Origin: Puniceicoccales bacterium Verruco_01
GTDB taxonomy: Bacteria > Verrucomicrobiota > Verrucomicrobiia > Opitutales > Oceanipulchritudinaceae
Direction of reading: 5' to 3'
Length of the DNA stretch: 64,000 nucleotides
NCBI GenBank assembly: GCA_001604565.1
Contig: LVBV01000018.1
Span: 62,001-126,000 of the forward strand
Part shown: one piece after another, positions 30,242 through 34,231 of the stretch
Layout: each line of letters opens with the position of its first letter
Position numbering within the stretch: position 1 is the first letter of the stretch
The notes under the pieces: model-generated
The model's input: only the letters and a program-made list of their open reading frames with translations
The model's database searches: none
What the model was told of the DNA's origin: nothing
Translations under genes and position numbers: made by a program

Positions 30242-31654
30242 CTATTCCGCGGCGGAGCCCGCGCCGTCGGCAAGTGCGGCGCCGAGCGCAGCCGCTCTTG
30301 CGGCATCGAAGGACGCGCCGAGCGGCAGTCTGCCGTCGCTCGCCACCTCCTTGAGGACCACGGCTCGACTCCCCGTCACCATGAAGCCGATGAGCTTGCC
30401 ATTCAGCGAGAAGACAAGGTCGCCCTCCGCCGGAACGAAGGAGCCGAAGAGCACATTGGCGAAGCTCGTCTGCACCTCGACGTAGCGGTTGGTGCCCGGG
30501 CTGACACGGATCGGCGCCTCGCCGTACTTCTCGCCTCCTGTCGTGACGACAACCGCCGTCGGGAAGCGCAGCGGGTTCTCCTCGATCTCGAATGGTCTCA
30601 CCGCGGCGTCGCCCGCAAGAGGCGCCGGAACGGGGAAAAGCGCGACGCGGCTGTCCGAGGAAAGGAAGAGAACGCTCTCGGCCTCGAAGGACTTCATGCC
30701 GGGAAGAAGCATCGTCGCCGAAGCGGAGCGGAGCGAGACGAGCGACTGGGGTTTCAGCGCCGTGCGCCCCACTTCCGCCATCGCGTACACCCCGCCCTTT
30801 TCATCCTTGGCGAAGACCGCGTATTTCTCGAAGGAGGCATCGACTTCCCCGAGGAGCCCCTTCGTCCGGATCGTGGCACGCACCACGGCGCGGTTCTTGC
30901 GGAAGAGCGTGAAGACCTCGTTGATGGAAAGGTGCGTCGTGTCGCGGATCTCCTTGCGGATGGCCTCGCCCGTGGTCTGGTGGACCTCGGCGAGCTCGCC
31001 GACGTTCCGGGCAAGGGTTTCGGCGCTGCGGCTGGCGGCATCCTTTTCCTCGCGAAGGGCCGCCATCTCGCCCTCCAGCCTCTTCTGCGACTGTGCGGCA
31101 CCCTCAAGCCTTGTGGCCAGGACGGCGCTTTCGCGTTCGGCGCGGGCCTTCTCTTCCTGAAGCGATGCGATGCTGCCACGCGCGGTGAGAAGCTCGTTTT
31201 GCGTCGCCTCCATCTGCTGCTGCATGAGCCGTTCGCGCGCCTGGGCGGCCACCACCTCGTCGCGCAGACGGTCGCGCTCTTGCTGGCTGAGCTGATACTG
31301 TCCGGCGAGGCTGCTGCGTTTCTCCTCCAGCTCGCGGCTCAGTTTTTCCAGCCTCTCGGCCTCACCCTGAAGGCGGTTCTTCTCTTCTTCGAGGGATTCG
31401 GAGCGGGACCGTTCCGCCTCCAGAACCTTCGAGCGTTCCTCAAGAGACCTGGAAAGCTCCGCGCGTGCGGCCTCCTCGCCTTTGAGCGAATCGCGCAGAC
31501 TGTCCACCACGTCGGGACGCACCGCCTGCGAGACGGGTGTCGCCACCGCCGCGCGCGCATTGGGGTCCAAAGGAGCCGCCTTGTCGAAGCGGGCCAGCGC
31601 CAGCATCGAAAGGAGCAGGAAGTCGCAGATGACGATAAGGAGCGAGTGGTTCAT
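30242..31654 (-). CDS. Membrane-anchored coiled-coil protein with TolR/ExbD/MotB-like N-terminal TM and beta-rich C-terminal domain
   Basis: MNHSLLIVICDFLLLSMLALARFDKA (TM with central Asp), long heptad region, C-terminal domain with GDLVFSLNGKLIGFMV; ATGA overlap with upstream gene. Confidence 0.65.
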   Translation of the reverse strand: MNHSLLIVICDFLLLSMLALARFDKAAPLDPNARAAVATPVSQAVRPDVVDSLRDSLKGEEAARAELSRSLEERSKVLEAERSRSESLEEEKNRLQGEAERLEKLSRELEEKRSSLAGQYQLSQQERDRLRDEVVAAQARERLMQQQMEATQNELLTARGSIASLQEEKARAERESAVLATRLEGAAQSQKRLEGEMAALREEKDAASRSAETLARNVGELAEVHQTTGEAIRKEIRDTTHLSINEVFTLFRKNRAVVRATIRTKGLLGEVDASFEKYAVFAKDEKGGVYAMAEVGRTALKPQSLVSLRSASATMLLPGMKSFEAESVLFLSSDSRVALFPVPAPLAGDAAVRPFEIEENPLRFPTAVVVTTGGEKYGEAPIRVSPGTNRYVEVQTSFANVLFGSFVPAEGDLVFSLNGKLIGFMVTGSRAVVLKEVASDGRLPLGASFDAARAAALGAALADGAGSAAE

Positions 31655-33363
31655 TTGCCTTCCGTGGCGGCGGGCGTCGCCTGCGCGCCGTTCTGGATTT
31701 CAAGAATGAGCCCCCGCCGATAGGTGCGCAGGTTCACCACCTTGAGGAGCGCCGTGAAGAGGATGCCGAAGAGTGTGGAGGAATACGCCGCCACAAGACT
31801 CGCCTGGATCACGTTCATGGCCAGCATGAGGAGCGACCCCACGGTGCCGAAGAGGCCGATGTACAGGCCGAGGTCGAAGAGATAGTCCTCGTTCTCCAGC
31901 AGCTTGAGCCGTGTTTCCGGCGGGACGGGAGTCGCGCGGATGCGGGCCAGCCGCATCACGCAGAAGACATATACCGCCAGCTGCACCATGAAGAAGAACA
32001 GAAGCGACAGAATAGAGGCCTGATCGAGTGAATTGGCGTTCATAGCTTGCATTGCTTGTTGGGTGGAGGCGAAGGCGTGACCGAGTTCAAAGACCGCCCG
32101 CGCGGGCCTTTCGGTGGTGAAACGGAGCAGATTCGGTTCGAGAAACATCCAAAGGACGATCGTGAAGGCTCCCGCGGCGAAAACGTTGCCCGAAAAAACC
32201 AGGCAACGGCGGCAGTGGGAAAAATCCCTTCCGAGGCGGCAGACGCCGAACCACGCGTCGAAAACCGCCATCGTGAGAAAATATCCCGAGGCGAAAAGGA
32301 TCGCAATCTTGACGACGAGCGCCGCCGCGCGGTGATGCAGGGCGGCCCCGGCAAAGGAATCGGGCCGCAGGGCAGTGAGGTTCCGGTCGAAGAAACGCAT
32401 GAGGCGCGGCGGGGTGTACAGGCCCTCCCCGTGCCGGGTGAGGACGCCAAGCGCCCCGGGGCCGAGGTTCACCGCCAGACGCAGCGCCGCGATTCCATCG
32501 CCGGGGGGCAGATTTTCAACATAGCCGGAAACCTTCGCATAGTCGTCCGCATACACCGTCGCGGCGAAAAACGTGGCCAGATCGTCCGGGGAGGAGGCAA
32601 TGCGGCTTGCGGCGTCGCAAAGATCCTCGGGGGAATCCGTGCGGCGGGTCATTTCGACGAGTGTCGTCCAGTCCATGCGCCGGGAAAGGGAGAGGACGGC
32701 AAGGAGCACGTTTTCCAGTCGCGACTGGTCCATGGCGTCGCCCCGGGCCGCGCCGTCGGCAATTCCCGGCAGCACGCGGGCGAAGGAAGGGCGCAACGCG
32801 TCCGTCTCCGCAAGCATGGCAAGGGTCAAAATCGCGGAATCGAGCGGTGCGCCGGCCTCGCTCTCCACGGGCATCAAAACTTTCCAGCCCGCGAGGTCGC
32901 GCGAACGCAGGAGCGCCTGCACGGCGCTGTTCCCGCTTTCCGAAAGCCGCGCAAGGGCCTCCGCGCGAACGCTCCGCAGCACCATCACCTCGCCGAGATT
33001 CACGTGGAAGGAGGAATCGGGCCTCAGGCGTGCCCCGGTTAACACCGCCTCGAAGAACGGAGAGGAACCTCCCGTAATGTTCAGGATGGGGCTGCGCGCC
33101 ACTAGATCCGCCATCTTCTGACGTTCCGTACCCTGCGGGGAGGCGATGCGGTTCTCCCATAACAGACGCAGCGGGCCCACCTTGCCGGAAAGGATGTAAT
33201 CGGCGGCGTAATCCTCGGGAGAACGCCCCTCCTGCCCCGCACGGACCAGAAGCTCCGGCGCCACAGCGCGGAAATGGACGGGAATGCAGATGCCCAGCCA
33301 CGACAGAAGAGCCGAGGCGGCCAGAAGTATGACAAAACGCGCGATTTTCCAGTTTCCCTGCAT
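31651..33363 (-). CDS. Multi-TM protein with C-terminal TolQ/ExbB/MotA-like segment and large N-terminal domain
   Basis: C-terminal LGLYIGLFGTVGSLLMLAMNVIQASLVAAYSSTLFGILFTALLKVVNLRTYRRG resembles TM2/TM3 of the MotA/TolQ/ExbB family; ~300-aa N-terminal region not recognised. Confidence 0.6.
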   Translation of the reverse strand: MQGNWKIARFVILLAASALLSWLGICIPVHFRAVAPELLVRAGQEGRSPEDYAADYILSGKVGPLRLLWENRIASPQGTERQKMADLVARSPILNITGGSSPFFEAVLTGARLRPDSSFHVNLGEVMVLRSVRAEALARLSESGNSAVQALLRSRDLAGWKVLMPVESEAGAPLDSAILTLAMLAETDALRPSFARVLPGIADGAARGDAMDQSRLENVLLAVLSLSRRMDWTTLVEMTRRTDSPEDLCDAASRIASSPDDLATFFAATVYADDYAKVSGYVENLPPGDGIAALRLAVNLGPGALGVLTRHGEGLYTPPRLMRFFDRNLTALRPDSFAGAALHHRAAALVVKIAILFASGYFLTMAVFDAWFGVCRLGRDFSHCRRCLVFSGNVFAAGAFTIVLWMFLEPNLLRFTTERPARAVFELGHAFASTQQAMQAMNANSLDQASILSLLFFFMVQLAVYVFCVMRLARIRATPVPPETRLKLLENEDYLFDLGLYIGLFGTVGSLLMLAMNVIQASLVAAYSSTLFGILFTALLKVVNLRTYRRGLILEIQNGAQATPAATEGK

Positions 33364-33643: not shown

Positions 33644-34231
33644 ATGTTGCGAGTGACCAAGTATGGAGAAAGCGTCCTGAGAAAGAAGGGCGAGAAGGTG
33701 ACGGAGTTTGGCGCGAAACTGAAGAAGCTGGCGGCGGACATGGTGGAAACCATGCACGAGGAGGACGGCGCGGGACTGGCGGCGCAACAGGTGGGGCAGG
33801 CTCTGGAACTTTTTGTGATCGACCTTGGCTGGCACGAGGGGCTGAACGATCTGCCCTACGAGCTCGACGGCAGGCATCCGCCGCTGGACCTGCTCATGCC
33901 GATGACCTTTGTGAATGCAACCGTCACACCGCTCAAAAGCGACATGGTGACGGCGGAGGAGGGCTGCCTCTCCTTTCCGGAAATTCGTGCGGAAGTGACG
34001 CGGCCCGACCGCATCCGCTGCGAATTCCAGGATCTCGACGGGGTGCGTCACACCCTTGTCGCGGGGGACTGGCTGGCGCGCGTGGTGCAGCACGAGTACG
34101 ACCACACGCAGGGCGTACTCTTTGTGGACCGCATGGCACGCGAGACGCTCCGCGCCATCGACACCCCGCTCAAACACCTGCGTAAGGAAGGTCGCAAACT
34201 CGAAAAAGCCTTCGGAAATCCGGAGGACTGA
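33644..34231 (+). CDS. def: Peptide deformylase
   Basis: DGAGLAAQQVG, EEGCLSFPE, VVQHEYDHTQGVLFVDR motifs. Confidence 0.95.
   Translation: MLRVTKYGESVLRKKGEKVTEFGAKLKKLAADMVETMHEEDGAGLAAQQVGQALELFVIDLGWHEGLNDLPYELDGRHPPLDLLMPMTFVNATVTPLKSDMVTAEEGCLSFPEIRAEVTRPDRIRCEFQDLDGVRHTLVAGDWLARVVQHEYDHTQGVLFVDRMARETLRAIDTPLKHLRKEGRKLEKAFGNPED

Follow-up and report, generated by a model that had tools for sequence, protein, structure and literature searches.

A conserved gene pair of Verrucomicrobiota that may encode a sequence-diverged ion-driven motor with a periplasmic shaft

Two adjacent genes, referred to here as A and B, occur together in much of one bacterial phylum and are absent from the protein-family libraries searched. 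The pair is an annotation gap: it is unnamed by Pfam, NCBIfam and PADLOC, and no published description of it was found from titles and abstracts, most subscription journals lying outside the coverage. By analogy with known systems, A and B may form a new 5:2-type motor, driven by ions, diverged in sequence and fitted with a periplasmic shaft like that of GldM, a reading to which we give a probability of about 0.6. It is supported by the co-occurrence of A and B, an invariant aspartate (Asp11) in B, a joint sequence motif and the charge topology in A, and the top rank of ExbB in hhalign comparisons; it is weakened by the lack of significant sequence homology to any 5:2 motor in Pfam, NCBIfam or the PDB.

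The gene pair and its distribution

The window, meaning the whole 64,000-nucleotide stretch of DNA that was analysed, is part of contig C46 of genome G000. It contains the pair as follows:

31651–33363, minus strand: gene A, encoding a 570-residue inner-membrane protein with six transmembrane helices (TMs), the candidate ring subunit (open reading frame; relatives in 35 of 55 genomes; AF2 model)
30242–31654, minus strand: gene B, encoding a 470-residue periplasmic protein with a single TM, the candidate axle and shaft (open reading frame; AF2 model)

An earlier note on this DNA had described two open reading frames joined by an ATGA overlap and had quoted peptides from them; frames, overlap (31651–31654) and peptides are all present where it had placed them. 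The open frame of gene A reaches up to 33753. Its start was placed at 33363 by alignment to 31 relatives, and the frame beyond this point overlaps a divergent peptide deformylase gene at 33644–34231. The host genome contains seven matches to PF01618, seven to ExbD and one to MotB, and gene A is not among the PF01618 matches; A and B therefore constitute an additional system.

The co-conservation of the two genes, which the earlier note had proposed to check, is borne out. Of 55 related genomes, 36 have a relative of B; within the same family the figure is 16 of 17, the host genome counted. All but one of the 36 also have A, directly upstream of B in 33 and unlinked in two. Among the 19 genomes lacking B, of which four were searched in one round and 15 in another, no convincing A was found, the only match in the fifteen-genome round being 24 residues long (G030). 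Searched against 19 genomes at an E-value of 10, profile A7 retrieved no ExbB, and its sole weak extra match lay in a solute-symporter-like frame. A first contig scan with B as the query gave no match.

The two unlinked cases, G032 and G051, belong to one genus and have A at another genomic place than B (L281, G032:C2; L268, G051:C1). The G032 copy of A is intact on reading and has no B beside it, and the match in G051 contains one in-frame stop (TAG). As both genes are kept at unlinked places in these two genomes, their link is not just operon hitchhiking. A single genome, G024, has B and no A (L280:3214–4036, G024:C13). Its B is without the Asp-bearing TM and the coiled coil, and consists only of the C-terminal domain after a short signal-peptide-like start. 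This fits a partnership of A and B through the TM and the shaft, as one natural experiment and not as a statistic. In one draft genome A is found in two overlapping frames (L036:9409–10987), probably owing to a frameshift or an assembly error.

A profile search for A across 289 genomes of the phylum returned full-length A within the order and, elsewhere, mostly short open reading frames matching only residues 440–556 or thereabouts. Twenty of these loci were fetched for closer reading. Two have a full-length A (L185 and L186), and the other 18 have a compact A (171–221 residues, four TMs) without the domain of about 300 residues that occupies positions 27–344 of the window protein; in one of the 18, L175, the called frame is longer (282 residues) and its start uncertain. 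B, of 485–629 residues, follows A in all 20 with a gap of −4 to +27 bases, and so stands directly after compact A in 18 of 18. Named genome contigs were also scanned, the named records being Lentisphaeria (for example Victivallis vadensis, L198) or uncultured bacteria without a name. Each of the 80 loci kept there has a compact A with B directly behind it and an Asp at position 11 of B. Since the short forms match the three-TM part only, with B always next, the conserved unit consists of the three-TM core of A together with B, and the 300-residue domain is an addition common to the order of the window organism and to at least two other genomes (L185, L186). Conservation across the phylum also argues that A and B are not a chance pair of open reading frames.

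The peptide deformylase gene (PF01327; 33644–34231, plus strand) is divergent from A, and homologous neighbours in the opposite direction occur in about 25 order-level loci, the Pfam identification being that of the window copy; it gives no functional hint for A and B. Downstream, a HemN-like radical SAM gene (PF04055, PF06969; 28185–30235, minus strand) begins a few bases past the B stop and is followed by an ispE-like open reading frame, an arrangement that was not seen to recur in relatives. In part of the order a Fur-family regulator lies near A (14 loci), as does a periplasmic binding protein (six loci); L034:5968–6348 and L044:12885–14123 are examples of these neighbours. A hint of metal-related regulation from these neighbours is possible but weak, and they were dropped as a guide to function, their occurrence being too inconsistent.

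Two motor-like genes, one of them encoding a long coiled coil, bring to mind the Zorya anti-phage defence system, with which A and B share, besides the two-gene plan, the Asp and a candidate Ser/Thr ring. In Zorya the rod is cytoplasmic and belongs to ZorA, and ZorB has a domain that binds peptidoglycan (PMC11890865); in the present pair B, not A, bears the rod, which is predicted to be periplasmic. PADLOC gives no ZorA or ZorB match, B matching only coiled-coil SMC-like profiles; the pair is conserved across the order, often fixed beside peptide deformylase (about 25 loci); and no recurrent nuclease or helicase partner was seen in the neighbourhoods. A Zorya-like defence role thus has next to no probability.

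Predicted architecture of the two proteins

The features of A and B to which the following refers are:

32332–33285, minus strand: A residues 27–344, all-helical domain, predicted periplasmic, missing in compact forms (AF2 helices, Lys/Arg density)
31681–32022, minus strand: A residues 448–561, conserved core of three TMs (TM1, TM2, TM3), the sole part common to all members (alignments A3, A5, A7)
31840–31857, minus strand: A residues 503–508 (GLFGTV), TM2 signature and counterpart of ExbB GLLGTV; G503, G506 and T507 invariant in 32 sequences
31762–31782, minus strand: A residues 528–534 (SSTLFGI), TM3 signature with Ser/Thr, candidate polar ring and counterpart of ExbB TTxxGL
31598–31648, minus strand: B residues 3–19, single N-terminal TM helix (AF2; hydrophobic in all members)
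31622–31624, minus strand: codon (GAC) of B Asp11, invariant intramembrane aspartate in mid-TM
31061–31510, minus strand: B residues 49–198, continuous coiled coil (AF2 helix, hydrophobic periodicity)
30323–30925, minus strand: B residues 244–444, trypsin-like domain (S1C/HtrA fold) without conserved catalytic Ser or His (Foldseek)

The AF2 model of A, built on a 32-sequence alignment, has a mean pLDDT of 84.9. The N-terminal domain of about 300 residues and the further TMs that the earlier note had attributed to A are seen in it as a helix at 2–26, the helical domain, and five membrane-length helices at 345–374, 386–408, 448–477, 498–515 and 522–561. In the 32 sequences the density of Lys and Arg alternates along the chain. 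It is 0.20 at the N-terminus, 0.23 in loop 373–387, 0.21 in loop 476–494 and 0.21 in the C-terminal tail, all assigned to the cytoplasmic side, and on the other side 0.10 in domain 27–343 (0.097, with Asp and Glu in excess), 0.05 in loop 409–447 and 0.03 in loop 515–521. This alternation points to a protein with its N-terminus inside, six TMs and a periplasmic domain. Charge alternation and AF2 helices together give the last three TMs the order out–in, in–out, out–in with a cytoplasmic C-terminus. The stator-like topology suggested earlier is thereby recovered, with the last three TMs of A in the order of ExbB, TolQ and MotA and a single Asp-bearing TM in B.

Invariant positions of the core include N491, E492, F496, G499, G503, G506, T507, A526, Y527, S529, F532, G533, K541 and R546; its conserved charged residues are E492, D497, K541 and R546. 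In the TM3 signature S529, G533 and I534 are invariant in the 32 sequences and T530 is present in at least 90%. The likeness of TM2 and TM3 to those of TolQ, ExbB and MotA, including the TM3 Thr, had been part of the original observation, and both GLxGTV and [ST]TxxG are indeed found. A joint pattern, G[LIVMFA]xG[TS][VIL]-x(14-45)-[ST]TxxG[LIVM], was searched for in 545 proteins of the loci. It matched 45 of 121 multi-TM proteins, namely 44 A proteins and one true ExbB (L050), and none of 45 further multi-TM proteins; the pattern was written after the similarity had been seen, so this result measures specificity and is no independent discovery.

The model of B (mean pLDDT 82.7) comprises a TM helix, a disordered link, a long helix and a beta domain at 255–444. 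The N-terminal TM with a central Asp (helix 3–19) is as the earlier note had read it, and Asp11 is invariant in every intact B in sets of 35, 20 and 80 sequences. A lipoprotein signal at this N-terminus was considered and rejected: Cys10 varies among members, an Ile precedes it at position −1, and the hydrophobic run does not stop there. The long coiled coil is likewise upheld; helix 49–198 has a hydrophobic heptad period of 3.50 residues, measures about 22 nm and is predicted to be periplasmic. Together with the S1C domain it takes the place of an OmpA-like or ExbD domain, neither of which is present on B.

What the note had called a trypsin-like look at the C-terminus of B corresponds to a predicted S1C fold. 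Foldseek matched the domain, in which pLDDT is mostly above 90, to the solved structures of DegP, Deg1 and HtrA1 (E 4e-6, probability 1.0), at an identity of only 11–17% to S1C matches. The alignments contain no conserved His, and at no position is Ser present in more than 70%. Asp334 and Asp412 are retained, Asp334 being the only conserved residue of the catalytic His–Asp–Ser set; the GxSGG pocket motif is missing, the consensus there being GDxVFSxxGxxxGxMV. With the fold present but GxSGG, a conserved His and a highly conserved Ser lacking, a pseudoprotease is the natural reading, and the domain is probably one. The fold it shares with HtrA and DegP would also suit a membrane-anchored protease module of the DegS/HtrA type, which the same three absences make very unlikely.

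In the main rival explanation the pair would be a static envelope-spanning scaffold or sensor: A would anchor B, Asp11 would be a buried polar helix-packing contact (A–B or B–B), and the head would sense periplasmic peptides or damage, with no ion-driven work. The lack of sequence homology to motors agrees with this, basic residues among E492, D497, K541 and R546 of the A core could pair with Asp11, and the use of an S1C domain other than in a plain protease is exemplified by the S1C-NTF2 structure of RsgI9 (7sjy), itself a Foldseek match. Against it, the TM2/TM3 signature and the topology of A match ExbB specifically, and absolute invariance at a single position throughout all lineages is more than one would expect of a purely structural Asp. 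On balance we regard the static explanation as unlikely.

Comparison with known motor families

The family matches that the earlier note had proposed to look for were not obtained. PF01618 matched neither the window A nor the A consensus, and among 32 relatives of A it matched one (E 0.17). For 35 B proteins, neither PF02472 nor PF13677 appeared at an E-value of 0.1 or better among the first 25 of 33 families, and the consensus of the B N-terminus had no match in Pfam. Single-sequence and per-member scans of A and B against Pfam and NCBIfam returned coiled-coil noise only, a sequence search of the PDB with profiles A3, A5 and A4 gave nothing meaningful, and Foldseek with the full A model matched no solved structure.

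Comparison of alignments gave a weak signal of resemblance between the A core and ExbB. With hhalign the core scored 22.2 against local ExbB alignments, which lies within the range of block-shuffled controls (two of 60 scored higher, at 22.3–23.6); local MotA alignments likewise gave no score beyond such controls. Two ExbB clusters scored 23.3 and 21.5, colinear over TM2–TM3, and ranked first among the tested membrane families; unrelated membrane families of the same loci, only three in number, scored 9–12 and a MotA cluster 11.6.

Such a signal might reflect common descent and not convergence, in which case A and B would be genuine but very strongly diverged members of the PF01618/ExbBD group of generic ion transporters. 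This explanation is compatible with the motor reading, from which it differs on ancestry only. The colinear motif and the first rank of ExbB speak for it, as does the variation among generic ion transporters, which have varied A extensions and can have very large B periplasmic domains (PMC12505986); no profile test, on the other side, reached significance. We hold it as a tentative possibility, somewhat short of an even chance. Many PF01618 loci of the order (L066–L091) carry an ExbB-like frame of 460–560 residues and, after it, a second ExbB-like frame of about 200–230 residues.

With ExbBD/TolQR (PF01618 and PF02472) the pair shares the order of A then B, GLxGTV and TTxxG in the last three TMs, and the Asp-centred N-terminal TM of B. 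It differs in the absence of a significant profile match, in the much shorter cytoplasmic loop of A, in the coiled coil and S1C domain that B has instead of the ExbD periplasmic domain, and, in full-length A, in the 300-residue periplasmic domain absent from ExbB. Two of the measurements count against the motor reading: the cytoplasmic TM1–TM2 loop of A is only some 19 residues long, and the TM2 and TM3 landmarks of A lie closer together than those of ExbB, by about 10 residues from Thr to Thr. MotAB shares a central Asp followed by Phe in the B helix (CDF in B, ADF in MotAB) and a TxxG landmark in a TM, but A is without the expanded cytoplasmic domain, B is without the OmpA-like domain, and hhalign is at background.

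In its long shaft B is more like GldM than like ExbD or MotB. GldL has two TMs, A four or six. GldLM/PorLM, the motor of type IX secretion and gliding, is likewise encoded by two genes, and its axle subunit bears a long periplasmic shaft that is dimeric; the periplasmic part of GldM comprises four domains (PMC9389320), where B has a coiled coil and a trypsin-fold head. GldLM, whose GldM shaft measures 18 nm, is a 5:2 motor without obvious homology to MotAB, so a true 5:2 motor need not be evident from sequence comparison (PMC9389320).

A possible mechanism and its meaning

From these comparisons we infer a motor function for A and B, and likewise an A–B complex, its stoichiometry, pore, ion flow, rotation and target. 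In the simplest model, several copies of A, by analogy five, would form a ring in the inner membrane. TM2 and TM3 would line its pore, and T507 and S529/T530 would make up a Ser/Thr ring there. In ZorAB and MotAB a Ser/Thr ring surrounds the Asp of the B subunit (PMC11890865). Two B helices would sit in the pore, where Asp11 would bind the ion and face this ring, and passage of ions via Asp11 would make the B shaft and A rotate relative to each other. B has no OmpA-like anchor, which suggests A as the part held in place and B as the part in motion. The B dimer would extend as a periplasmic coiled-coil shaft of about 22 nm, which would be long enough to span the space between the two membranes, and at its tip an enzymatically dead trypsin-fold head may grip or push some target close to the outer membrane or the cell wall.

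The fuller proposal is that the pair represents a further class of 5:2 ion-driven motor, unrecognisable by sequence and old in Verrucomicrobiota and Lentisphaeria, in which a pseudoprotease-tipped coiled-coil shaft spans the periplasm and the full-length ring is held by its own periplasmic domain; we place this slightly under an even chance. The two natural forms of A, with and without the 300-residue domain, and the genome without A provide built-in tests of which part is anchored. If A and B are a motor, they would add one more lineage to the few ion-driven rotary machines known so far, and would show that machines of this kind escape family profiles. A 22-nm shaft with a pseudoprotease head would, if the proposal is true, let force or information pass directly through the envelope of bacteria with a poorly known cell biology.
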